DNA of 64,000 nt from Blautia sp. Marseille-P3201T (lineage in GTDB: Bacteria; Bacillota; Clostridia; Lachnospirales; Lachnospiraceae), in NCBI RefSeq assembly GCF_900120295.1, contig NZ_LT635469.1, positions 558,001 through 622,000 of the forward strand, in the 5' to 3' direction. The notes under the pieces are model-generated. The model saw only the letters and a program-made list of their open reading frames with translations, made no database searches and was not told the DNA's origin. Shown here piece after piece: positions 10,998 through 34,973 of this stretch. Made by a program: the position numbers and the translations under genes. The first letter of the stretch is position 1. Each line of letters starts with the position of its first letter.

Positions 10998-11594
10998 TTA
11001 CAAGGTCTGATAAACCTCTGCCAGCATATTGACCAGAAAATCCTGAGAAAAACGGCTGGTGTCAATGCAAAGCTGGTAATTGTCCAGATTGTTCCACTTC
11101 TGGTCAGTGAAAAATTCGTAGTAAGATTTACGTGTTTTGTCCATCTTCTTTACAAGGGCACGAGCGCTCTTTTCTTCTCTGCCTAAGCGTTCCATAACTG
11201 CTTTTACACGATATTCATAAGGGGCGTATACGAAAAGACTCAGACAATCATCACCCAGTATATAATTAGCACAGCGTCCTACAATAATGCAGTCTTCTGT
11301 TTTGCCCAGACGCTCAATAATTTTGGACTCTGTCTCAAAAAGAACATCATTCATAGGGTGAAAATGATACTGTGGCTGCATCTGCATCTGCTCATTGATA
11401 GGAAGCCTCCACTGATTAGCTTTTTTCTCATCTACTTTCAGCAGTTCTTCATATGGAATGTCATTTTCTTCACTTGCAAGGCGAATAAGTTCGTGATCAT
11501 AGAAATGAATTCCCAGCTTATTTGCCAGTGCTTTTCCGAGTAAACGTCCGCCGCTTCCATACATACGATTGATAGTAATAATACGATGACTCAT
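10998..11594 (-). CDS. Cytidylate-kinase-like P-loop protein (Cytidylate_kin2 family)
   Basis: A 198-aa protein with an N-terminal P-loop variant (INRMYGSGGRLLGKALA) followed by GIHFYDHELIRLASE, the pattern of the cytidylate kinase-2 family that is widespread in clostridia. It also has DCIIVGRCANYIL and Arg-rich lid-like residues near EYRVKAVMERLG. The start is set by GGAGGG eight bases upstream of the ATG at 11594. The true substrate of this family is not established, and this is not the canonical Cmk. The gene is monocistronic and convergent with the ABC exporter. Confidence 0.75.
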   Translation of the reverse strand: MSHRIITINRMYGSGGRLLGKALANKLGIHFYDHELIRLASEENDIPYEELLKVDEKKANQWRLPINEQMQMQPQYHFHPMNDVLFETESKIIERLGKTEDCIIVGRCANYILGDDCLSLFVYAPYEYRVKAVMERLGREEKSARALVKKMDKTRKSYYEFFTDQKWNNLDNYQLCIDTSRFSQDFLVNMLAEVYQTL

Positions 11595-11831
11595 ACGAAA
11601 CCCTCCTTTTAACAATCACTTTATATAATAAATTATAGCACTAATAGTCCGAAAATTCCAGAAAAAATGATAAAATGTAAGAAATATATTTAGAAGGATA
11701 AAGACTTAAATTGTGTTTTTCGGCAAAAAATCGTCTTTCTAAGGGCTAGAAGGTTGCTTTTTTTAGGGATTTATATTATATTAAGTTAGGTAATGTCATT
11801 TTGGAGATGGCAGTATAAAGGAGAATAGAAT

Positions 11832-13388
11832 ATGGAGAATACAAATAGCAAAAAAAAGATGAGCTCGGCAAAGCGAAAGAAAAAGCGCATTCGAAAAGCC
11901 TTTCGTATAGCCGGTGAAATTTTGGTTGGAATTCAAATTCTTGCGACGCTTATTTTTATCGGCTTTACATGGAGATTGGGAATGATTCCTGCCAAGTATG
12001 TAGTGGGGTTTGCAGCGTTACTTCTTGTTTTTGCAGCATTGCTTTTTACCATGCAGATTGTAACCAGGGGAAAAGCAATTGTCAGTAAAATTGTCAGTGT
12101 TCTGATGTCAGCTGTTTTGATATTCGGTTCTGTATATATGTATCAGACACATGATGCAATTAAGGACATCAGTGGTGATACTCTGGGAAAACAGGTACAT
12201 AGTGTTCTGGTAGTAGTCAGAAAAGACGATGATGCAGAAAAGGTATGGGATACCAAGGATTATGTTTATGGTGTCCAGTCAATAGAAGATGACAGCGAAA
12301 TGGCAGAGGCAATGAAAAAGGTCAATGCCGATGCAGGAAAAGAGGTTTTGACAAAGGAATTCGATACCTTAAACGATCAGGTGGCAGGGCTGTTAAGCGA
12401 AGCTGTAGATGCCATTGTGTATGATGAAAGCTTCAGCGGAATTATTGAAGAAGTAAATGAGAATTATAACAGCAAAGTAAAAGTCATTGCACAGTATAGC
12501 ATTGAAAGTAAGAGCGACAGCATGACACAGGGAGTTTCTCCTGACGTAAACGTAAAAGATGAACCGTTCAGTATGTTTATCAGCGGTATTGACGTCTATG
12601 GACCGATTTCTTCAAAGAGCAGAAGTGATGTAAATATTATTGCAACCGTCAATCCTGAGACAAAGCAGATTTTGCTTACCAATACACCGAGAGACTTCTA
12701 TGTAACAATTCCTGAGGTGTCAGGTGAGAAAAAGGATAAGCTGACACATGCGGGTATTTACGGCGTAGATAAGTCCATGGCGGCTTTAGAAGAATTATAT
12801 GATATTGAAATTCCGTTTTATACAAGAGTAAACTTTACTTCTTTGATTACGATGGTTGACTTAATGGGCGGCGTAGATGTAGAGTCAGAATTTGAATTTA
12901 CCACAAGCGGCGCCGGTGGTGAGATTATGGATGTAAAGAAGGGCATCAATCACTTTAACGGTGCACAGGCGCTTTCTTTTGCCAGAGAACGTTATAATGT
13001 TCCGGGCGGAGACAACCAGAGAGGTAAGGACCAGATGGCTGTTATTCAGGCCATGTTTAAGAAAATGATTACTCCGGAAATGCTGGTAAAAGCGCCAAAG
13101 ATGATTTCCGAAGTAAGCAACAGCGTAGAAACCAATATGTCTATGGAACAGATACAAAGATTAATTCAAAGTCAGATTGACAATGGCGGAGAATGGACGA
13201 TTAAATCTGTTGCAGCAGAGGGTACAGGGGATCAGGCATTTTGTTACTCTGCACCGGGTACTGCTTTGTATGTTACAATTCCGGATGAAACTTCGGTTGC
13301 GAACATTAAAGTGCTGATGGACAAGGTGGAAAACGGTGAAATGCTTCCAAGCGACACGCCAAATGAAACAGGGGAAGCAGTAGAATAA
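11832..13388 (+). CDS. LytR-CpsA-Psr (LCP) family cell-wall glycopolymer ligase
   Basis: A 518-aa membrane-anchored protein. The first 20 residues are very Lys/Arg rich and cytoplasmic, and three hydrophobic segments follow up to about residue 110. The extracellular LCP domain begins near residue 250. Family motifs seen are the Arg/Asp-rich SRSDVNIIATVNP, the TNTPRDFYV strand, LTHAGIYG, and FARERYNVPGGDNQRGKDQ with the conserved Arg residues that contact the polyprenyl pyrophosphate. LCP enzymes attach teichoic-acid-like or capsule polymers to peptidoglycan. The acidic tail ends shortly before the lysine riboswitch. Confidence 0.9.
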   Translation: MENTNSKKKMSSAKRKKKRIRKAFRIAGEILVGIQILATLIFIGFTWRLGMIPAKYVVGFAALLLVFAALLFTMQIVTRGKAIVSKIVSVLMSAVLIFGSVYMYQTHDAIKDISGDTLGKQVHSVLVVVRKDDDAEKVWDTKDYVYGVQSIEDDSEMAEAMKKVNADAGKEVLTKEFDTLNDQVAGLLSEAVDAIVYDESFSGIIEEVNENYNSKVKVIAQYSIESKSDSMTQGVSPDVNVKDEPFSMFISGIDVYGPISSKSRSDVNIIATVNPETKQILLTNTPRDFYVTIPEVSGEKKDKLTHAGIYGVDKSMAALEELYDIEIPFYTRVNFTSLITMVDLMGGVDVESEFEFTTSGAGGEIMDVKKGINHFNGAQALSFARERYNVPGGDNQRGKDQMAVIQAMFKKMITPEMLVKAPKMISEVSNSVETNMSMEQIQRLIQSQIDNGGEWTIKSVAAEGTGDQAFCYSAPGTALYVTIPDETSVANIKVLMDKVENGEMLPSDTPNETGEAVE

Positions 13389-24513: not shown

Positions 24514-24546
24514 CCGCAGATGTGCGTGCACATTCTGCGGTAATTT
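24514..24546 (+). terminator. Hairpin between the small CxxC protein and the split lipoprotein gene
   Basis: CCGCAGATGTGC and GCACATTCTGCGG pair with one bulge and are followed by TAATTTT. Confidence 0.7.
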
Positions 24547-24566
24547 TATATTTTATGGGAGGAAAT

Positions 24567-25025
24567 ATGAGGAAGGAAGTAAGTGTTTTATTTGCAATTG
24601 TGCTGGGGATTAGCACAATATTTACCGGCTGCGGTAAAGAAAAGAAGGAAGAAGCGGAATTGACACCTGTAACTCTTAACGAGGTTGCCCATTCTATATT
24701 TTACGCACCACAATATGTTGCTGTAGAGGAAGGATACTTCGTGAAAGAGGGTATTAAACTTGAATTGGTCACAGGATTTGGTGCAGATAAAGTAATGGCA
24801 GCGGTTCTTTCAGGTGATGCGGATATTGGGTTTATGGGCTCTGAGGCAAGTATTTACGCCTATCAGCAGGGCGCACAGGATCCGGTGATAAATTTTGCAC
24901 AGCTTACACAGAGGGCAGGAAACTTTTTGGTGGCTAGAGAAAAAATGCCTGATTTTAAATGGGAGGATTTGAAAGGCACAGATATACTGGGAGGAAGAAA
25001 AGGTGGCGTACATATATTAATGTAA
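24567..25025 (+). pseudogene. 5' half of an SsuA/THI5-like ABC substrate-binding lipoprotein, cut by an insertion
   Basis: Starts at the ATG at 24567 after GGGAGG. It has a lipoprotein signal (FTGC) and then the first lobe of an NMT1/THI5-type solute-binding protein (NEVAHSIFYAPQYVAVEEGYF read over 21 positions; LSGDADIGFMGSEAS). Native sequence stops at GGRKGG (base 25006); VHILM and a stop codon come from the inserted element. Joining base 25006 to 34406 restores one frame of 335 codons, the usual length of this family. The intact protein would bind an aromatic, taurine-like or thiamine-precursor type ligand; no permease or ATPase partner is adjacent. Confidence 0.9.
25001..25006 (+). other. 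Left attachment core of the inserted element
   Basis: AGGTGG occurs here and at 34400-34405 in direct orientation, at exactly the two points where the lipoprotein gene is interrupted. Confidence 0.85.
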
Positions 25026-25122
25026 ATTTGGAGAGTATTGTAATTTTATGTAACTGGGTGGATGGGATGAATAGTGCGAAAGAATTTCAGACATTGAAAT
25101 AAAAAATATCCTGAAATCAAAA

Positions 25123-25173
25123 GAGGAGCCAGATTTCTCCGGCTCCTCCAAGTATGTGTCCGCAAACACATAC
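25123..25173 (+). repeat. Two adjacent hairpins near the left element end
   Basis: GAGGAGCC/GGCTCCTC (25123-25148) and GTATGTGT/ACACATAC (25152-25173) lie just after the stop codon that the recombinase would use in the circular form. They also separate that end from the convergent Abi gene. Confidence 0.7.
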
Positions 25174-25222
25174 CCCAATTGCTATTAATAATATACTATA
25201 ATAACGAAAAATATGCAATAGA

Positions 25223-26206
25223 TTAGATTGAATTTTTTAATATTGTCATCCGCGAAAACAAGTCTGGATGAACGGTGATTGCAGCTACGGCAGAACTAAC
25301 CTGCCCCTCATATTCTTTAGTTATTTTTTCAAATTCTCTTATAAATGCTTTGATTTCAGTTTTGGACACCTTCAACAACTTTAAGAAATAACATATAAGA
25401 ATGATATAATCTCCTATAGTCTTAAAATTTATGTATGGTAATCCCATTTCTGACATTAGACATTGCTTCATAGGTTTCGATGGATCCATTTTTCTAAAAC
25501 GTGTATCATAAACAACATCATTATGTGCGATAGCATTTCTTAAATCTTTTAATGCATATACATATTTATAGACTAACGTACAATTGGTATCGCTGGACAA
25601 ATTCAAACCAATATTTCTTGAAATTTTTTTTCTGACATCTTGTGTTAAGCAGGAAAGAAGATATCCAAAATCTCCCATTGTCAAAATTTCAAAGATTGCC
25701 CAGATTGGGACTTCATTATAATTCACAGTATTATAAAAATGTGTAATTTTCGGATTTTCTTTTCGGTATGCCGCTGCAATAGAATTTTGAATAGAACCCT
25801 GTAAATTCAATTTATTGTTCTGAAATTTTTTCTTAATGTCTTTCGAAGTTCCTGGTAAAGCATTTTTGTAACTGCTGACGGCTTTGTCATACATATCATA
25901 AATGCTGTTTGAATTAATCTCTGCCATAATGGTATTAAGGGCAATGTTTTTAAGAGCAGTTTCAATCAACATCATTTTACCGTATAACAATGATTTCAAT
26001 TTTGTGTCGTATTGGATCGTAGCATTAATTTCATTGTATGAGGTAAAAGGGATTCTACGATTGGACGAAACAAAAAAACGGTATCCCTTATATCCGTGAA
26101 AATATCCTGTATTAATTAATTGTTGCTTTTGTGAACTGCCTGAAATAGCAATTCCATTATTCCGAAGATGACGCATTAGTGCATCTGTTGATTTATAATT
26201 TGACAT
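25223..26206 (-). CDS. Abi_2-family abortive infection protein (HEPN-type)
   Basis: A 327-aa protein of the AbiD/AbiF (Abi_2) family. It starts with the family pattern LMRHLRNNGIAI, LINTGYFHGYKGYRFF and a DTKLKSLLYGKMMLIETALK helix. It contains DLRNAIAHNDVVYDTRF, whose R-x4-H arrangement (RNAIAH) is typical of HEPN ribonucleases. Such proteins stop phage growth by shutting down the infected cell. The start follows AGGAG. It is the first cargo gene inside the left edge of the element and reads toward the boundary. Confidence 0.85.
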   Translation of the reverse strand: MSNYKSTDALMRHLRNNGIAISGSSQKQQLINTGYFHGYKGYRFFVSSNRRIPFTSYNEINATIQYDTKLKSLLYGKMMLIETALKNIALNTIMAEINSNSIYDMYDKAVSSYKNALPGTSKDIKKKFQNNKLNLQGSIQNSIAAAYRKENPKITHFYNTVNYNEVPIWAIFEILTMGDFGYLLSCLTQDVRKKISRNIGLNLSSDTNCTLVYKYVYALKDLRNAIAHNDVVYDTRFRKMDPSKPMKQCLMSEMGLPYINFKTIGDYIILICYFLKLLKVSKTEIKAFIREFEKITKEYEGQVSSAVAAITVHPDLFSRMTILKNSI

Positions 26207-26256
26207 AAATTCTCCTGTTTAACATTTAAAACTATTAATTGTGATACAATCGATTT

Positions 26257-26577
26257 TTAGCCTGTAATAAAGCGAATGTTTTCCTTCAGTTCATCGCTAA
26301 ATTCTTCTAAATCGTTCATAGTGATTGCACCTTCATTTAAAAGTGAAACAATGTTAGAGATGCAATTAGAACGACTCATTCTTAACTGTACACCTGTATC
26401 TTTTTTATCGTTGCGAATTCGCTCTTCTAAAGCCCAGAATTTTTCAGAAGGAGTTCCTTTACCATTTAGCAATTCAATATATTCTTTATTCAACTTATCC
26501 ATATAGGCTTCTTGCCAATCTGCAATTTTCTCTCTGAACAAAGCCCAATCCTTTTTAGTAAATCCGTATTCCGACAT
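26257..26577 (-). CDS. Small conserved protein of restriction-modification neighbourhoods
   Basis: A 106-aa soluble charged protein. The start at 26577 is chosen because GGAGG is nine bases away, while a second ATG six bases upstream is too close to it. It has YGFTKKDWALFREKIADWQ, FWALEERIRNDKK and a C-terminal NDLEEFSDELKENI helix. From memory, very similar proteins are found beside type I restriction genes in Firmicutes; their function is not known. It lies 50 bases upstream of the Abi gene on the same strand and may be cotranscribed with it. Confidence 0.6.
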   Translation of the reverse strand: MSEYGFTKKDWALFREKIADWQEAYMDKLNKEYIELLNGKGTPSEKFWALEERIRNDKKDTGVQLRMSRSNCISNIVSLLNEGAITMNDLEEFSDELKENIRFITG

Positions 26578-26738
26578 TGTCATGTTCCTCCACTTTGGCA
26601 TAAGTAAATTATAGTATAAGCATTTTAGTTTCACAATACTTGTATTTAGAAAAAATATATTTGATATTTGATTTTGTATGATTGAGAATTACAATTCAAA
26701 ATTGAATTTTAAAACGTCGAATGCTATAATCTTCTTAT

Positions 26739-27299
26739 AATTCTCATTATGAGAAGTTGGACGGAATCGAGCATTGTATCGACGGTGAGATACCGTTTGA
26801 TATTCCAGAATCTTGGGTATGGGTACGTTTCTTTTCAGTAATAGATATAGCAACAAACCTTGTTCGCCCTGATACATACGCTGATTATATGCATATCGCT
26901 CCAGACAATATTGAAAAAGCAACAGGAGTCCTTCTGGAATGTCGCACAGTACAGCAAGATAAGGTAGTAAGCCCAAATCACATGTTTTATAAGGGGCAAA
27001 TTATTTATTCAAAAATTCGTCCGCTATTACGAAAAGCTGTAATTGCTCCGTTTGACGGATTATGTAGTGCAGATATGTATCCGTTAAATACATCAGTAAA
27101 TAAAGAATATCTTTTGAGATATATACTGTCCGATACTTTCAACTTGCAAGTAGCAACTACGATGTCAAGCCGAGTTAAAATGCCTAAAATAAATCAGGAT
27201 GAATTGAGTAATATACTAATTCCTATCCCGCCGATACAGGAACAAGAGCGTATCATAAGTAGAGTTAAAGAATTATTCGATAAGATCACGCTGATTTAG
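26739..27299 (+). pseudogene. HsdS target-recognition cassette 1 (no N-terminus, silent)
   Basis: The frame opens after a TAA at 26727 and holds one target-recognition domain (EIPFDIPESWVWVRF to about residue 150) and the conserved closing IPIPPIQEQERIISRV. There is no usable start codon or ribosome binding site; the first possible initiator is an internal TTG. It is oriented opposite to the other two HsdS pieces and lies inside the 69-bp inverted repeats. It fits a storage cassette for DNA-specificity switching of a type I restriction system. Confidence 0.82.
26741..26809 (+). repeat. Left 69-bp inverted repeat of the hsdS cassettes
   Basis: Exactly complementary to 28705-28773. The repeat encodes the start of the recognition domain (NSHYEKLDGIEHCIDG in protein terms), so recombination would swap domains in frame. 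Confidence 0.9.
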
Positions 27300-27340
27300 C
27301 GTAGAATTGTATAATATCTGGCGAAAGGAGGTCTTTCACC

Positions 27341-28150
27341 ATGATAGAAAAAGAAAAATTTGAAAGACATTTGAGGGGGACGAACCTCTCGGAAAACACG
27401 ATTTCATCGTATCAGTTTGCCATCAAACAGTATGGAGGGCAATACGATGATGTTACCCAGAAAAAGCTACGAGAGTACAAGGTATGGCTGATCGAGAATT
27501 ACAAGCCCAAGACAGTTAATCTCAGACTTCGAGCTATCAACTGCTACTTAGAGTGCATTGGCAAAGAAAAATGGAAACTGCCATTTGTCCGTGTGCAACA
27601 GAAAACTTTTTTGGAAAATGTCATTAGTGAAGCAGACTACAAATACTTCAAATCTTGTCTGAAGAATGACGATGAAATGTTCTGGTATTTCGTAATCCGC
27701 TTCCTTGCCGCCACCGGAGCTAGAGTCAGCGAACTGATTCAGATTAAGGCTGAACATGTTAAGTTAGGGCATCTTGACCTGTACTCCAAAGGCGGTAAAT
27801 TACGCAGAATTTACATCCCCAAAGAATTACAAAACGAGGCTCTTTCTTGGTTGGCTAAAAAGCAACAAGAAAGCGGCTTCATTTTTTTGAACAAGTATGG
27901 GGAACGTATTACCACCCGTGGCATCTCTGGACAGTTGAAGAAGCTGGCAGTGAAATATGGTATCAATCCTGTGGTTGTGTATCCACACTCATTCCGTCAC
28001 AGATTTGCCAAGAGTTTCCTTGACCGCTGTAATGATATAGCATTTCTTGCTGATCTTATGGGACATGAAAGCATCGAAACTACCCGTATTTACCTCAGAA
28101 AAACAGCTACAGAACAGAGAGAAATTGTTGATACAATCGTAGATTGGTAA
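27341..28150 (+). CDS. Tyrosine recombinase, likely hsdS-cassette invertase
   Basis: A 269-aa XerC/D-like recombinase. The N-terminal SAM-like core-binding domain (FERHLRGTNLSENTISSYQ) is followed by a catalytic domain with the first Arg in AATGARVSELIQ, the Lys in YSKGGKLRRIYI, the box HSFRHRFAKSFL, a second His in MGHESIETTRIYL and the nucleophilic Tyr in that last motif. AAAGGAGG precedes the start. It sits between two oppositely oriented HsdS cassettes bounded by 69-bp inverted repeats, the typical place for enzymes that invert type I specificity genes. Confidence 0.9.
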   Translation: MIEKEKFERHLRGTNLSENTISSYQFAIKQYGGQYDDVTQKKLREYKVWLIENYKPKTVNLRLRAINCYLECIGKEKWKLPFVRVQQKTFLENVISEADYKYFKSCLKNDDEMFWYFVIRFLAATGARVSELIQIKAEHVKLGHLDLYSKGGKLRRIYIPKELQNEALSWLAKKQQESGFIFLNKYGERITTRGISGQLKKLAVKYGINPVVVYPHSFRHRFAKSFLDRCNDIAFLADLMGHESIETTRIYLRKTATEQREIVDTIVDW

Positions 28151-28196
28151 AAAGGAAGGCATACACTTCAACAACCCGAAGTGTATGCCTTGTTCC

Positions 28197-28757
28197 TTAT
28201 AGATGTTCAATTTTGCTCATTGCACAAGAAATCTGATTTACGATTCTTTTCTGCTCTTGCAATGGCGGAAGTGGAAATATAAAATGTTTGAGCTTTTCAG
28301 CATTTATATTAGATTGTCCTATTGCATCGCTTCTGACATTTTGACAATAAATCCAGTAATACTGTGACTGCATAACATAATTAAGATAATCACTGTCGAT
28401 TAAAAGTGGGTGCAAACGCACTAAATATCCGGCATAAATAGCTGGAATTTCACTTTTATAAATTGCTACCTTACCAACTAACTCTTTGCTGTTGGTTCGA
28501 TTGAATAGCAAATCGTTATACTCTAACGGATATTTTTCGATTTCTTTCGAGTCGGATGTGTAAACTAATTTATCCAACACGATTCGTCCGTTTTGTAAAT
28601 TTCCCATTCTTAACACAGCAATTTTTCCGGTCAGAGAAGATTTCTGTGAGGAACCATATTGGATATTGGTACACACTTCTCCAACCGATGTCCATGCCCA
28701 GCTGTCTGGAATATCAAACGGTATCTCACCGTCGATACAATGCTCGATTCCGTCCAA
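28197..28757 (-). pseudogene. HsdS target-recognition cassette 2 (no N-terminus, silent)
   Basis: Same start as cassette 1 (DGIEHCIDGEIPFDIPDSW) but a different recognition domain, ending FPLPPLQEQKRIVNQI. The first possible initiator is a TTG and an in-frame TGA lies just upstream, so it has no expression signal of its own. It is an alternative second domain for the larger hsdS piece that ends 20 bases upstream on the same strand. Confidence 0.82.
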
Positions 28758-28773
28758 CTTCTCATAATGAGAA
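28705..28773 (-). repeat. Right 69-bp inverted repeat of the hsdS cassettes
   Basis: Exact complement of 26741-26809. Together they bound a 2.0-kb segment holding both silent cassettes and the recombinase gene. Confidence 0.9.
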
Positions 28774-28776
28774 AAT

Positions 28777-30153
28777 TCAGAAATTCAGCTTATCAATGCG
28801 ACCGAATATCTTGCTAACTTCATCAACAATTCGCTGTTGCTCATTTAGCGGCGGAAGCGGTAAGAAAAAAGTTTTCATTTTTTCCTGCGAAATATTAACC
28901 TGTGAAGCTGCCATTCCTGTCATGGCGTCAACAACAAAATATTGCATTGCAGGACTACTTAATGCAGTCATTACATAATGTGGATTCACAAAATTACGCA
29001 GATATGATAATCGGACAGTCTTGTCCGATAGAATCAAATTTTCAGGCTCTCCATCTACAACACAAATAACTCCCGTTCTATTTCGAGGGCCAGCTCTGGT
29101 GATAAGCAGATCTCCATGATGTATTACCATAGATTTCTGTAAATTGAAATCCGGGGGTAAGACTTTGTTCTCTTCAGCTAGGAAGTACCCGTCCTGAATT
29201 GCGGTAGTTTTTATAACTCCCCATTCGCCAATAGTCCGAGGGCGATTCTCACACTGAGGGCTTTTTCCTGCATCCGTGGACGTAAGTATTGTAGACAATC
29301 TAATCCATTCCCAAGAATCTGGTAGTTCAAAAGGAATAAGATCATCAATATTTTCTTCCTTAAAATCACACTTTTCATAATGAGAATTATCCCTTCTGAA
29401 AATGACGGACTCGTGCTTGTCCTTCTTGATTTTACCTTCGGCAATTAACTCTTGCTTCTCCGCACGAATACGTTCCAGAAGAACGGAAGCTGGCTCATCA
29501 CCAGGATCTTGTGGAACGAGTTTTCCTTGGATTGCTTCCTGTAGAATAGATTTTTTGAGTAGATTCGGAAATGCAGAATCTAGAGAAACTCGTTTGCTTT
29601 CCTCACAACCATATTTTTCAACAAGCGGTAATATAGTTTTAATTTTAGATACTATACGCACTTGCTCTTGCAACGGTGGCAAAGGAATGAAGCATTCTTT
29701 AAGGAGTGTATAGTGACGTGCGTATCCTCTATTCCTAAGTGTTTCTGCAGCGTAAAGCATCCAGTAATAAATATACTCGGAATTACACGACAGTATTTTG
29801 TGGAACTTTGTTCCATCTGCACCAATAACAAACTCAAAATCAATATACTTAACATTTCGGGTGTGATCACCAAACATTACCAATGGCAAAACATCTATTT
29901 TCTTGGATACATCATTACAATACCCGTCTATAAGATCTTTGCCTTGACTTACAACAGGGATCTTCCCAGTAGGGAGAACTTCTTTTGATTGGATTTGATT
30001 GTTTTTATTGCCAATGGGCATTGAAATTGTTTCAATCTTTGCCCACTCCCAACTCTCAGGAATCTCAAACGGTACTTCATCCGCAATGCACACCGATTCA
30101 TTCTTTCCGACTTTCTCATAAGGCAAATTATCAGAATCGTATTGTAAATACAA
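28777..30153 (-). pseudogene. 5'-truncated type I restriction specificity gene (hsdS) with two recognition domains
   Basis: 458 codons encode recognition domain 1 (about 1-185), the conserved central helix region LLKKSILQEAIQGKLVPQD, recognition domain 2 (about 265-440) and the closing LPPLNEQQRIVDEV. An in-frame TGA directly precedes the first codon (TTG), there is no ribosome binding site, and the N-terminal helix region usual in this HsdS type is missing. The break lies at DSDNLPYEK, equivalent to the switch point of the cassettes. hsdM and hsdR are not in the window. It is probably inactive, or a donor cassette for a locus elsewhere. Confidence 0.8.
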
Positions 30154-30232
30154 TCATAAAAAATGCAACATACTTTGAACATCACTTATCATAAAAAATA
30201 TTATTCTCAGCATTTTTTCCTTCCCATATTAT

Positions 30233-30588
30233 TAAGAGCAAGATCCACCCCGTATTACAATATCGCCATTCTACCATATAAGTAATATTTTCGGAGTTTT
30301 ATCTTGCTGGGGAACTGTTGCCTCCCCATACCCACTTTTTTATTAGCTACACCGGCGGTGTACGCAACAAAATATCATAATTAACATAATTCTATTTTGA
30401 GGTATTCAGTAAGTAACTGGATGTCTTTTTCTTTTTGAAAATACACATGGTGATGCGAACAAATTCTTTTGTAAGCCAATTATATAAGCAAGGGTATGGG
30501 GAATTGTCACTCCCCATCAAGAGAACACCCATAAGGTGAACGGGGGCGGAAACGCGATAACGTTAAACATGGGTGGATCTTGCTCTTA
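30233..30588. repeat. Symmetric noncoding region, possible replication or transfer origin of the element
   Basis: The 582 bases between the hsdS pieces and the RepA-like gene have no gene. An 18-bp perfect inverted repeat (TAAGAGCAAGATCCACCC at 30233-30250, complement at 30571-30588) frames a pair of similar hairpins at 30308-30328 and 30497-30516 (TGGGGA/TCCCCA). These share CCCCATACCC/GGGTATGGGG in opposite orientation. A palindrome TACACCG-G-CGGTGTA lies at 30348-30362. ATCTTGCT at 30301-30308 can also pair with the left arm, so two folds exclude each other. The position just upstream of an initiator gene suggests an origin or its control RNA. Confidence 0.65.
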
Positions 30589-30735
30589 TAAATTTTTTTC
30601 TTTGTACCCTGTAAAATGAGCCTTTTTCCTTTCGTTATATGAGGAGATATCAAAAGAGAATTTTTATAAAGCATAAAATCTCTTTGGGAAAGCCGGCATC
30701 CGTCTCCTTAATTTTTCAGAAAGGTAAAAGAAAAT

Positions 30736-31263
30736 ATGAAATTTGAATATATGATGGAAACGGAAAAGATACTTCCCTATTATCAGTTCCCTAAATTTTT
30801 ATTAGAGCTACCACTCTCTCAAAATGCAAAATTACTTTATATGTTGTTATATGACAGAGCCAGAATTTCACAGAAAAACCATTGGCTCAATGAAGACGGA
30901 TATGTATATTTCGTCTTTCCAATTACAGAAATTTCTTTAAGATGGGGAAAATGTTGTACTTCTGTAAAAGCTGCCATGAAGGAATTAGATGAGTATGGAT
31001 TGTTGATTCGCAGTTCCGGAGGATTTTCAAAACCAAATCATTTATATATGCGAATCCCCTGTATAGAGTTGATTTCTGAACCGGATGTAAAGCAGACAGA
31101 CGAAAATACAACTTCCATGAGGATGAAAAGCTGTCCTTCATTCAGTCGGAAAACAGCCTCTTCCATGGTCGGAAATGTGCCACCTAGTAAAGTAAAAGAA
31201 AAATATAATTTTAGTAATAAGATTGGAGTAAATTACGAATATGAGGAGGGCGATAGTCTATGA
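30736..31263 (+). CDS. RepA_N-like replication initiator protein
   Basis: A 175-aa protein opening with the N-terminal domain pattern of RepA_N initiators of Gram-positive plasmids and integrative elements: YYQFPKFLLELPLSQNAKLLYMLLYDRARIS over two adjoining stretches, then a winged-helix region (ITEISLRWGKCCTSVKAAMKEL). The C-terminal 60 residues are short and polar. It overlaps the DnaC-like gene by four bases. The pair should start replication of the excised circle, probably at the symmetric region upstream. Confidence 0.8.
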   Translation: MKFEYMMETEKILPYYQFPKFLLELPLSQNAKLLYMLLYDRARISQKNHWLNEDGYVYFVFPITEISLRWGKCCTSVKAAMKELDEYGLLIRSSGGFSKPNHLYMRIPCIELISEPDVKQTDENTTSMRMKSCPSFSRKTASSMVGNVPPSKVKEKYNFSNKIGVNYEYEEGDSL

Positions 31264-32102
31264 TAAAGCAGGAAAACACATATTTAGGTGCAGATGGATT
31301 AGCATATTGCAAGATTTGTGGAGAACCTGTAGAGGCATATTTTCCTCCAGACAGTATTCTTGGTATGAAAAAACATTTCAGACAATGTGCATGTATCCGT
31401 CAAAAACGTGAAGCAGAAGAAAAGGCATATAAAGAAAGAGAACATTGCGAATTAGTGGAGAGAAATAGAAAAATCTGTTTTGAAGAATCACGAATGTATG
31501 ATTGGAATTTTGAACGGGCAGAAAATACGGCTACTATAGAGAAGGCAAAAGAATACACAGCAAACTGGCATGATATGAAGAAAAAACAAATTGGTTTTCT
31601 CTTGTGGGGACCAATAGGAACAGGAAAGAGTTACATAGCTGGTTGCATTGCTAACGCACTTTTGAATCAGGAAATTACTGTGAAGATGACAAATTTTAAT
31701 ACGATTATTGATGAAATGTTTCCATTGGAGGATAAAACAGAATATATCAATGCTTTGGCACGATATGAACTTTTAATTTTGGATGATCTTGGTACAGAAC
31801 GAAGTTCTGAGTATGCTCTAGGAATCGTGTTCAGCGTAATTGACCGAAGATACCGCTCCGGCAGACCATTGATTGTAACCACCAATCTTTTGATAAAACA
31901 ATTAAAAGAAGAAACGAACATAGAAAAGAAACGAATTTATGATCGTATTTTGGAAATATGTGTTCCGTTATATGTCGGCGGTTCTAGTTATCGGAGCGAT
32001 ATTGCCCATGAAAAAATGGGAAAAATGAAAACCTTTTTTGCTACTGCCGAATCAAGTCAGACTGAAAATATTATAGAGCAGACAGGCACAAAAACAATCT
32101 GA
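31260..32102 (+). CDS. DnaC/IstB-like ATPase, helicase loader
   Basis: A 280-aa protein with an N-terminal zinc-binding candidate (CKICGEPVEAYF ... CACIRQ) and an AAA+ core: Walker A GPIGTGKSYIAG, Walker B LLILDDLGTERSS, sensor-1 LIVTTNLL and an Arg finger region KKRIYDRILEIC. This is the usual partner of RepA_N-type proteins on Firmicutes mobile elements, loading the host DnaB-type helicase at the origin. Confidence 0.88.
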   Translation: MIKQENTYLGADGLAYCKICGEPVEAYFPPDSILGMKKHFRQCACIRQKREAEEKAYKEREHCELVERNRKICFEESRMYDWNFERAENTATIEKAKEYTANWHDMKKKQIGFLLWGPIGTGKSYIAGCIANALLNQEITVKMTNFNTIIDEMFPLEDKTEYINALARYELLILDDLGTERSSEYALGIVFSVIDRRYRSGRPLIVTTNLLIKQLKEETNIEKKRIYDRILEICVPLYVGGSSYRSDIAHEKMGKMKTFFATAESSQTENIIEQTGTKTI

Positions 32103-32141
32103 TATTTATATCTTAGTATAGACATCAGAAATAGAAAGAGT

Positions 32142-32339
32142 GTGATAACTCTGCAGAAACCTACATATTACTTGTGGCGAACAGATTATACATCTTCAGA
32201 AGACTTTGAGGCAGATAAGGAGAAATATAGGAAAATAGGTTTTCGGGTTGTCACGTTTGCGGATGGGCAGCCAGATAAAAATATACATAATGGAATAAAA
32301 GCGTTGATTCGGAATCATATAAAAGAAATCAATCAGTAA
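32142..32339 (+). CDS. Small element protein of unknown function
   Basis: A 65-aa soluble protein from a GTG start; the AAAGAG site is weak. It contains YYLWRTDYTSSEDFEADKEKYRKIGFRV over two stretches and a basic C-terminus. Small proteins of this kind commonly sit between the DnaC-like and recombinase genes of such elements. Function unknown. Confidence 0.55.
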   Translation: MITLQKPTYYLWRTDYTSSEDFEADKEKYRKIGFRVVTFADGQPDKNIHNGIKALIRNHIKEINQ

Positions 32340-32476
32340 TTTTTCTGGGGCGGGAGTGTTTTCCCGCTCTTATTATTTTGTTAAAAAATCATGTGTTTCT
32401 CGTTTACGAAAAGGATTTTTCGATATATAATTATATTACATTATTACACAAAAAACATTTCAGAAAGGATAAAAAT

Positions 32477-34426
32477 ATGAATGTAGGTTATGTGCGTCTT
32501 TCCAGAGATGATGACAAACGAAATTATGTTTCCATAGAAAATCAGAAGTTAATTATCAATCAGTATGCATCTGACCATGGAATGGCTATTGACCGATGGT
32601 ATGAAGATGACGGAGTATCAGGCTATATTTTTGACAGACCGGGATTTCAGCAGATGATGGCTGATCTGGATAAAGATATTGATACCGTATATGTGAAAGA
32701 TTTCTCTCGTCTTGGCAGACATAATGCGAAGGTTCTTTTGCTTTTGGATGAATTTCAGGAACGGGGAAAACATCTCATTGTCATTGATGATAATTACGAT
32801 TCTTTCGATTCCAGCGACGACACCATTGGAATTAAAACATGGTTCAATGAGCGTTATGTAAAGGATACCAGTAAGAAAATCAAAATAGCGATCGGAGCCA
32901 GACAAAAAGAAGGCACTCTTATGACAAAACCACCTTTCGGATATTGTCGGGATGAAAAAGACAAAAGTATCATCAAAATCGTTCCCAAAGAGGCAGAATT
33001 TATAAAAATGGTTTATGACCTTTATATTTCTGGCTCCGGTTATCGTAAAATAGCAAATTATCTGACTGATCAGGGCATTCCAACGCCTTCTATGGTACAG
33101 CGGGAACGGGAAATAGAGGAAGGCCTCGTGAGTAAAAAGAAAGTTGCCACCAGTTGGTCTGACAGTATGGTGAAAGAATTATTAGATAATGATTTTTACA
33201 TTGGAACCTTTCGTTTGAGAAAACGTGCCAGAAATACAGTACATGGCAAGGATAAACGTGTTCCAAAAGAAGAACAGTGTATTTTTGAAGATCATCATCC
33301 GGCAATTATTGATAAAGCAACTTTTTCTCTTGTACAGGAATTAAAGGAAAAGCGTAATCGCACAAACTATCGTGGAAGCAGGGGAGAATGGATTGGTTCA
33401 GAAATTCCCAATCCGTTTGGAAGCTGTTTGTTTTGTAAAGATTGTGGAAGTCGTCTGACACCGATTAAGCGTCAAACCTCCAGCAGAGAACGGAAATATT
33501 ATATTTGTACCACCTATAATACAAAAGGCAGACGATATTGTGAAAAAGCACATCTGATTGAAGAAAATGATTTGATGGAAGATGTGCTGAATTATATTAA
33601 GATGTGCAGAGAGGCGCTTTGTGAAGTGATTTCCACGTACGATATGAGGGATTTTGAGGCAGAAAAGAAAACGCTGGCAGAAAAACGACAGGACATTCAG
33701 GAAGAAATTCAAAATCGAAAAAATCAGTTGAAGGTACTTTTGACACAGAAGATAAAAGATTTATCTGTGGCATCTGAAAATGAAGCTTTGATCCACGAAA
33801 CCTATGATTCCATGCAGAAAGATTTACTGGCGCAGATTCATGGACTGGAGATGCAGGAAAAGGAACTGAACGAAACTACTATAGAAACACCGGATGTAAA
33901 GGATAAATTGAGAAACGCGTTGGATGTCGTTGATAAAATTATTGCCGGAGGATCGCTTGACCGAAGAGATATTGAACTGTTGATTGAGCGAATTGACGTA
34001 GACAAAGAGGGAATGCCGGAAATTACATTAAAATATGGTTTGTCTGATTTAATCAATTACAGTCCTGCCGACGAGATGAACCGTCGGGAGAATACCGTAA
34101 TCGCTCTTGTAATGAAACTGATTATTGAAGATAGACGTGGATATACATCTGCGAAATATTTATCTGAGCATATCACAGCATTGGGATTTAAGAAAACGAA
34201 ACAAAGCATCTTGCCTTATATCAATCTGATGAAAGATCTGGGGATTCTGGAAGATACGGATAATTCGCTGAAACCTTACAATATAGTGAAAACAAAAGAA
34301 GAAATTACGGAACTGATACGTCAATATCTGCCGGATTTACCGGCTCAAATGACTGCCAAACAGCTATCGAACGATTATTTACATTATAATACTGGCGACA
34401 GGTGGTATGCCAGAAATGGTATTTGA
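32477..34426 (+). CDS. Large serine recombinase (TndX/TnpX type)
   Basis: 649 aa from the ATG at 32477, preceded by AAAGGA. The resolvase domain carries the catalytic Ser9 in YVRLSRDDD and DFSRLGR. The recombinase domain follows (PPFGYC to about 270), then a zinc ribbon (CLFCKDCGSRLTP ... YYICTTYN ... RYC), a long coiled coil near 400-480 and a C-terminal domain. It should integrate and excise the element. The last six residues (YARNGI) lie beyond the attachment core in host DNA, so the integrated form has a host-derived C-terminus. Confidence 0.93.
   Translation: MNVGYVRLSRDDDKRNYVSIENQKLIINQYASDHGMAIDRWYEDDGVSGYIFDRPGFQQMMADLDKDIDTVYVKDFSRLGRHNAKVLLLLDEFQERGKHLIVIDDNYDSFDSSDDTIGIKTWFNERYVKDTSKKIKIAIGARQKEGTLMTKPPFGYCRDEKDKSIIKIVPKEAEFIKMVYDLYISGSGYRKIANYLTDQGIPTPSMVQREREIEEGLVSKKKVATSWSDSMVKELLDNDFYIGTFRLRKRARNTVHGKDKRVPKEEQCIFEDHHPAIIDKATFSLVQELKEKRNRTNYRGSRGEWIGSEIPNPFGSCLFCKDCGSRLTPIKRQTSSRERKYYICTTYNTKGRRYCEKAHLIEENDLMEDVLNYIKMCREALCEVISTYDMRDFEAEKKTLAEKRQDIQEEIQNRKNQLKVLLTQKIKDLSVASENEALIHETYDSMQKDLLAQIHGLEMQEKELNETTIETPDVKDKLRNALDVVDKIIAGGSLDRRDIELLIERIDVDKEGMPEITLKYGLSDLINYSPADEMNRRENTVIALVMKLIIEDRRGYTSAKYLSEHITALGFKKTKQSILPYINLMKDLGILEDTDNSLKPYNIVKTKEEITELIRQYLPDLPAQMTAKQLSNDYLHYNTGDRWYARNGI
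34400..34405 (+). other. Right attachment core of the inserted element
   Basis: The second AGGTGG, directly followed by TATGCCAGAAATGG, which continues the lipoprotein gene in frame. Confidence 0.85.
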
Positions 34427-34973
34427 GTATATTTTGAAACAAAATGGCATTGATCCGGAAAAGGACGTAAATATTGACAGAAGTATTGATTTTGGTTCTA
34501 CAGCGGCAGCTTTTATGGGCGGTCAGGGAGATTTCAGTGTGGAATTTGAACCGTCTGCTACAGCTTTAGAACAGGAGGAAGCAGGTTATGTAGTAGCTTC
34601 CTGCGGTGTTGACTCCGGTTATGTACCATACACTGCCTATAGCGCTAAAGACAGTTTCATACAGGAAAATCCGCAAATTATTCAGGGCTTTACCAATGCG
34701 CTGCAAAAAGGTATGGACTACGTGAATACGCATACACCGGAAGAAATTGCTAAAATCATTAAACCACAATTTCCGGAAAATGATTTAAAAACCATTGAAA
34801 CCATTGCAAAACGTTATCAGGAACAGGATACATGGAAAGAAAATCTTGTGTTTGAGAAAGAAAGCTTTGAGCTTCTGGAAAATATTTTAGAAGATGCAAA
34901 AGAATTGGAAAAAAGAGTTCCGTATGAGGAATTAGTGAACACAGAATTTGCAGAAAAAGCAGCAAAAGAATAA
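34406..34973 (+). pseudogene. 3' half of the split SsuA/THI5-like lipoprotein
   Basis: Resumes in frame after the element with MPEMVFEYILKQNGIDP and carries the second lobe of the solute-binding fold (VEFEPSATALEQEEAG, GYVPYTAYSAKDSF). It has no start signal of its own and overlaps the last 21 bases of the recombinase gene in another frame. Without the element it completes a 335-aa protein with the fragment at 24567. Confidence 0.88.

Follow-up and report, generated by a model that had tools for sequence, protein, structure and literature searches.

The large serine recombinase at the right end of a 9.4-kb integrated element appears to exchange its own C-terminus each time the element recombines. 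In the chromosome the protein has 649 residues and ends in a few residues supplied by the interrupted host gene, whereas the frame read across the joined ends of the element, as in the excised circle, gives a protein of 674 residues whose last 31 codons lie at the far end of the element. Comparison of related elements indicates that a state-dependent C-terminus of this kind, kept under protein-level selection, is well supported. We consider it probable that the embedding of attP in the end of the recombinase gene provides the circle with an enzyme carrying a conserved C-terminal helix, and that the resulting change of the C-terminus favours the integrated state.

An attachment site within the recombinase gene

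The element occupies positions 25001-34405 of the window, the whole 64,000-nucleotide stretch of DNA that was analysed, and interrupts the gene of an NMT1-like substrate-binding protein. The two halves of this target gene were recognised on the plus strand at 24522-25006 (5' half, by Pfam) and at 34403-34973 (3' half, by Pfam and from the joined host frame). With the element removed and the host gene rejoined at the core AGGTGG, the halves read as an uninterrupted frame of 350 codons whose only stop is the terminal one. Copies of the core, also read on the plus strand, stand at 25001-25006 on the left and at 34400-34405 on the right. The right core falls in frame in the recombinase gene, where it makes up the codons R-W, and a sequence-only reading of this DNA, which had placed the core inside the 3' end of that gene, is borne out in this respect.

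The recombinase gene (32477-34426, plus strand) forms the right end of the element, and its frame exits through the right core into the host gene. Its translation shows the architecture of a large serine recombinase, with Resolvase, Recombinase and zinc-ribbon domains (PF00239, PF07508 and PF13408) in that order and all above the Pfam cut-off, followed by a C-terminal extension. The integrated form ends in YLHYNTGD-RW-YARNGI, the six residues past the core and the TGA being encoded by the host gene (34406-34426, plus strand). Across the joined ends, the frame instead continues from RW into RTYINVNLESIVILCNWVDGMNSAKEFQTLK, a circle-only tail of 31 codons plus TAA (25007-25102, plus strand, with the stop at 25100-25102) that is recognised from the joined frame, from its conservation and from a predicted helix. 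Thus the attachment site lies within the gene, and the gene is disrupted upon integration. Translation confirms both ends as they had been proposed from the letters of the window: the stop after six host residues at 649 residues, and the continuation from 25007 through 31 codons to give 674. The further proposal, that the left end of the element still holds the recombinase gene's own 3' end, is upheld by the frame across the junction together with the protein-level selection on the tail described below. Taken from the window alone, an open stretch of 31 codons is weak evidence: when the left end is modelled by dinucleotides, it arises by chance with a probability of about 0.08. The tail is more than a chance frame because its protein sequence is conserved in relatives.

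We infer the crossover dinucleotide from differences between the two ends. In the window's clade, all right ends seen have A at core position 1, where left ends have either A or G; the two ends may also disagree at positions 4 and 6, and the crossover is therefore placed at the GG of positions 2-3, that is, at 25002-25003 in the left core and 34401-34402 in the right. The attP of the window then reads TTTACAT-16-GG-16-ATGTAAA, with the arm TTTACAT (34378-34384, plus strand) 16 nt before the GG and the arm ATGTAAA (25020-25026, plus strand) 16 nt after it. Its symmetry about GG is what is expected of a serine-integrase attP, the general architecture of which is set out in passages of PMC3783163. 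The spacing of the right arm is the same in 19 of 26 related right ends, the other 7 being without exact arms, and that of the left arm is the same in all 18 tail-bearing left ends. Both arms fall in coding sequence, YLH on one side and NVN on the other, and the TAA within the left arm also terminates the truncated host frame.

The best fold matches for the recombinase are YokA-type serine integrases, with query TM-scores (0.27-0.33 for the first five) that indicate similarity at the level of domains only. The YokA profile match covers positions 4-492 of 618, and the recombinase has its C-terminal extension beyond this. In the structure model (pTM 0.49, mean pLDDT 74.5), the integrated form drops below a pLDDT of 50 over residues 636-649. 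The tail modelled alone is predicted to be helical over residues 10-32, with pLDDT block means of 93 and 90 in mid-helix. We rejected the possibility of the tail supplying the missing part of a second winged-helix domain, since a profile comparison of residues 555-607 with residues 606-670 of the joined form gave a probability below 2%.

Conservation of the circle-only tail

In the genome collection, 32 loci carry relatives of the recombinase, and for 19 of these the identity is at least 64%; they occur in Lachnospiraceae and other Bacillota. Within the family, 299 genomes were scanned and 15 have such a gene, counting that of the window. The same host-gene position adjoins the right end in 28 of the 29 recombinases placed in the tree, the exception (L014) being on a short contig with a 3' end unlike the others. 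The window's clade comprises 22 rows of this tree, with moderate support (92/84), and in 15 of them the recombinase is paired with an in-frame tail resembling INVNLESIVILCNWVDGMNSAK. Nine pairings follow from locus or contig coordinates (the window, L009, L010, L011, L013, L015, L021, L023 and L045/L056), and six are presumptive, the two ends lying on different contigs of one genome (L012, L016, L019, L020, L046 and L047). Cultured carriers include Faecalimonas umbilicata DSM 103426 and Frisingicoccus caecimuris DSM 28559 (L009, L010).

Homologous elements, which the sequence-only reading had named as a check, give a mixed result: the left-end frame is open in these 15 rows but not throughout. 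With the crossover at GG, a TGA follows directly in L018, as it does at the junction of L025, which lies outside the clade. Two clade members have a shortened tail: in the genome of L022 it is cut by a stop after GCRTQYNVNFETMY, and in that of L024 a 241-bp insertion interrupts it 18 codons from the core. Besides L018, no recognisable tail accompanies the degenerate recombinase of L026 or the gene of L048, which stops 64 bp before the core. The remaining two rows are L017, for which a search for the left end found none, and L014, which was excluded from the tail count (its tail lies elsewhere in the genome, its recombinase frame departs at residue 621 and its contig is short). Outside the clade, the recombinase genes of L052, L054 and L055 also stop before the core, L053 reads through it into an unrelated tail, and in L050 and L051 the frame passes through it in another phase. 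Thus, the tail is usual in the clade and not indispensable. The insertion in the tail coding sequence of the L024 genome (at L085) has inverted ends and is MITE-like.

Selection on the tail was assessed in 18 left ends (16 unique), namely those of the 15 pairs and three unpaired ones (L067, L073 and L076), with a decayed remnant (L075) left out, and was limited to the 17 codons beyond the attachment arm (ESIVILCNWVDGMNSAK). The ratio pN/pS is 0.24 (pS 0.565, pN 0.133), and none of 2000 column shuffles was as low (shuffle mean 0.86); with the 17-codon set shifted by one codon, the ratio is 0.30, and 1 of 2000 shuffles was as low. Differences at the first, second and third codon positions number 327, 235 and 734. 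As pairwise counts these values are non-independent and come from a short stretch, so that they amount to strong support rather than to a formal tree-based test. Stops interrupt both remaining plus frames in each of the 16 unique left ends. The residues E, C-N-W and D of the tail are invariant. In its inner part the tail comes close to the conservation of the catalytic region, and the linker ahead of the core varies strongly: mean identity to the consensus is 0.87 over residues 652-668 (E to K), 0.92 over residues 1-150 and 0.66 over residues 606-645.

No in-frame ATG, GTG or TTG precedes the conserved part of the tail in 12 of the 18 left ends, and in five of the six that have such a start it lies only within the variable host flank. 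The tail is therefore in general not expressible alone when the element is integrated. Behind it, a terminator scanner found no plus-strand terminator in the window, L021, L072 or L013; for the window and for L013, it reported a hairpin with minus-strand orientation.

A second lineage reaches a comparable arrangement in a different phase. The recombinase of G148, about 45% identical to that of the window, enters the core in the phase of the host gene, and in the integrated state it forms an open frame of 829 residues in which the recombinase is fused to the substrate-binding-protein half. In the phase of the recombinase frame, the left end of G148 reads GGRPKHDVTFENIREIYEWTSQKALDLAVFKYDEKITSAS and then a stop. 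A tail 70% identical to this one, with the same stop, is present in G338, in whose assembly no recombinase relative was found at E values up to 1e-60 and where the contig ends shortly past the tail; a third relative, G262, has a shortened version of the G148-type tail. The G148 and G338 tails give a pN/pS of 0.27 over 34 codons. The 5' half of the host gene also reads into the tail in this phase, and selection could act there. Homology between the window tail and the G148/G338 tail is possible but finds no support in their alignment, which keeps one register throughout and yet was equalled in score by 36 of 200 shuffles. In the relatives L050, L051, L060 and L061, the integrated recombinase frame is in phase with the host gene, with open fusion frames of 829 and 822 residues.

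A recombinase probably edited by its own reaction

We suggest that the tail and the attachment site work together as follows. In the circle, the recombinase gene would be whole and would give the 674-residue enzyme ending in the conserved helix, and this tailed enzyme would be the integrating form. Upon recombination at attB in the substrate-binding-protein gene, the sequence coding for the helix would come to lie at the opposite end of the element, where the relatives have no start codon in common, and the integrated recombinase would be left capped by a few arbitrary host-encoded residues. Loss of the helix would damp the enzyme after integration, and excision would rely on the truncated form, perhaps aided by the 65-aa neighbour described below. 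The outcome would be a state-dependent C-terminus that biases the element towards staying integrated.

Since the gene would be whole in the circle alone, selection on its tail must act on functions of that stage; the simplest candidates are integration or, at attP, binding and synapsis. Once the element is integrated, its recombinase gene yields the truncated enzyme and nothing longer, so that any excision must fall to this form. The loss of a conserved helix upon integration is therefore a candidate for a built-in brake or direction switch, and it is plausible that the tail swap switches the direction of recombination. A stronger version of this proposal, which we put forward tentatively and regard as possible, is that the recombinase carries its own directionality control by helix exchange at attP, the circle enzyme being competent for integration and the chromosomal enzyme restricted to excision, or dormant, and that this control has been kept across divergent lineages, including that with the G148/G338 phase.

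The tail might also be an ordinary stabilising end, acquired when the gene grew across the attachment site, with the truncated form working about equally well and no regulatory effect. This more economical account is a serious but doubtful one. The poorly conserved linker before the core fits it, as do the stops at the junction in L018 and L025 and the genes that end before the core in L048, L052, L054 and L055, all at the same site; yet the inner residues of the tail approach the conservation of the catalytic region even though they stand outside the recombinase when the element is integrated. Removal of a conserved end upon integration would equally be expected if the truncated form were dead and the element locked until another copy supplied the whole enzyme in trans, the logic described for archaeal SSV-type integrases in passages of PMC8371274. 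Related elements in several genera have one common attB, so that such help is conceivable, but the loss is of only 31 of 674 residues and leaves the catalytic, recombinase and zinc domains whole, and we judge this explanation unlikely.

Two further explanations carry less weight. According to PMC4557955, integration of mycobacteriophage BPs removes 33 C-terminal residues from its repressor, the shorter form being stable and the longer one degraded, and by analogy a degron could make the circle form of the recombinase short-lived and the integrated form stable. The last residues of the tail, however, vary among relatives (TLK, NI, NL, SI, TF, II, IM, YQ and MK), and its conserved part is an internal helix rather than the terminus, which makes a degradation tag very improbable here. 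The least probable of the readings is that the frame is conserved for another reason, as a small gene of its own, as an antisense gene or through a DNA-level constraint on the attachment site. The attachment arm does code for the first residues of the tail, and minus frame 1, in which the wobble positions are the same, is likewise free of stops in all 16 left ends, with a ratio of 0.32; the selection test, however, took in only codons beyond the arm, no start codon is common to the left ends, and the window has no minus-strand ORF of at least 60 aa that reaches past 25013 into the tail. The state-dependent C-terminus remains our preferred reading.

The direction of phage serine integrases is normally ascribed to separate directionality factors. 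The arrangement described here raises the possibility of a direction switch without, or besides, such a factor: the reaction itself would edit the end of the enzyme, and evolution would have kept an end that exists only in the circle. A 65-aa ORF just upstream of the recombinase gene (32142-32339, plus strand), picked out by locus comparison, matched no protein family. Of 25 related loci, 20 have a relative of it (32-98% identity) no more than 1.5 kb upstream of the recombinase gene, tail-less loci included; identity is 53-98% in 17 of these and 32-40% in the other 3. We infer no more for its product than a candidate directionality factor.

The window enzyme resembles the YokA, PhiC31, Bxb1 and A118/LI type integrases in its domain order, in its best solved-structure matches and in an attP symmetric about a central dinucleotide, and differs from them in having the attachment site in the coding end of its C-terminal extension. 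As in the archaeal SSV-type (suicidal) integrases, attP lies within the integrase gene and integration separates the parts of the gene; those enzymes, however, are tyrosine recombinases in which an N-terminal part is split from the catalytic part (passages of PMC8371274), whereas the window enzyme is a bacterial serine recombinase that loses only its last 31 codons. Self-disrupting recombinase genes are called exclusively archaeal in passages of that 2021 review (PMC8371274). Integration-dependent immunity in mycobacteriophage BPs likewise involves an attP within a gene, so that integration shortens the encoded protein relative to that of the free form, but the gene there encodes a repressor and not a recombinase, and in contrast to the ssrA-like degradation tag of BPs the window tail has, as judged by sequence, no conserved terminal tag (PMC4557955). 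In ICEKp1, too, integrase output depends on the integrated or excised state; there promoter switching acts on transcription, as PMC13023037 describes, whereas here the protein C-terminus changes. Switching by an attachment site within a gene is thus already known, and the present case would place it in another enzyme family (serine) and another domain of life (bacteria), extending self-disrupting recombinase genes to both. In the open-access literature searched, we found no serine recombinase with a C-terminus changed by integration.

Free forms, element content and target sites

A search for circles or tandem copies with the attP pattern, exact arms being needed, matched none of 397 genomes. 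The single match of the pattern in a viral contig was rejected as a chance site with no related genes nearby. Plasmid records searched with the tail gave nothing at E values up to 1, and relatives of the recombinase in plasmid records (42 of 42) and phage records (64 of 64) are all below 60% identity (E up to 1e-20); viral contigs scanned with the recombinase contained one weak relative, at 26% identity.

Between the left end and the recombinase, the element carries genes for a RepA_N-type initiator and a DnaC/IstB-like ATPase (30736-32102, plus strand), which suggests that the circle can replicate. Of 25 related loci, some of them truncated at contig edges, 4 have both genes and another 2 have only the DnaC-like one. 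Passages of PMC5704250 discuss RepA_N and DnaC-like genes in integrative mobilizable elements. Among nine ORFs scanned with Pfam, there was no relaxase or oriT for mobilisation.

The cargo at 26689-30153 has type I restriction specificity genes or fragments on both strands, flanking a tyrosine recombinase (27341-28150), and contains 91-nt inverted repeats (90%) at 26732-26822 and 28692-28782. It looks like an invertible hsdS shuffle module. An Abi_2/AbiD-like abortive-infection gene (25223-26206) adjoins the left end, and the copy in L010 is 99% identical.

Two genomes of the window's genus (L096 and L097) have an intact target gene with KSG (AAAAGCGG) in place of the KGG of carriers (AGGTGG or similar). 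These sites may be unusable for integration because the crossover GG is missing there. In L088, a decayed remnant of the target gene (2329-2665) is accompanied by an old left end in which the tail frame is still open, and at 11466-12455 the genome carries an intact target gene as well.
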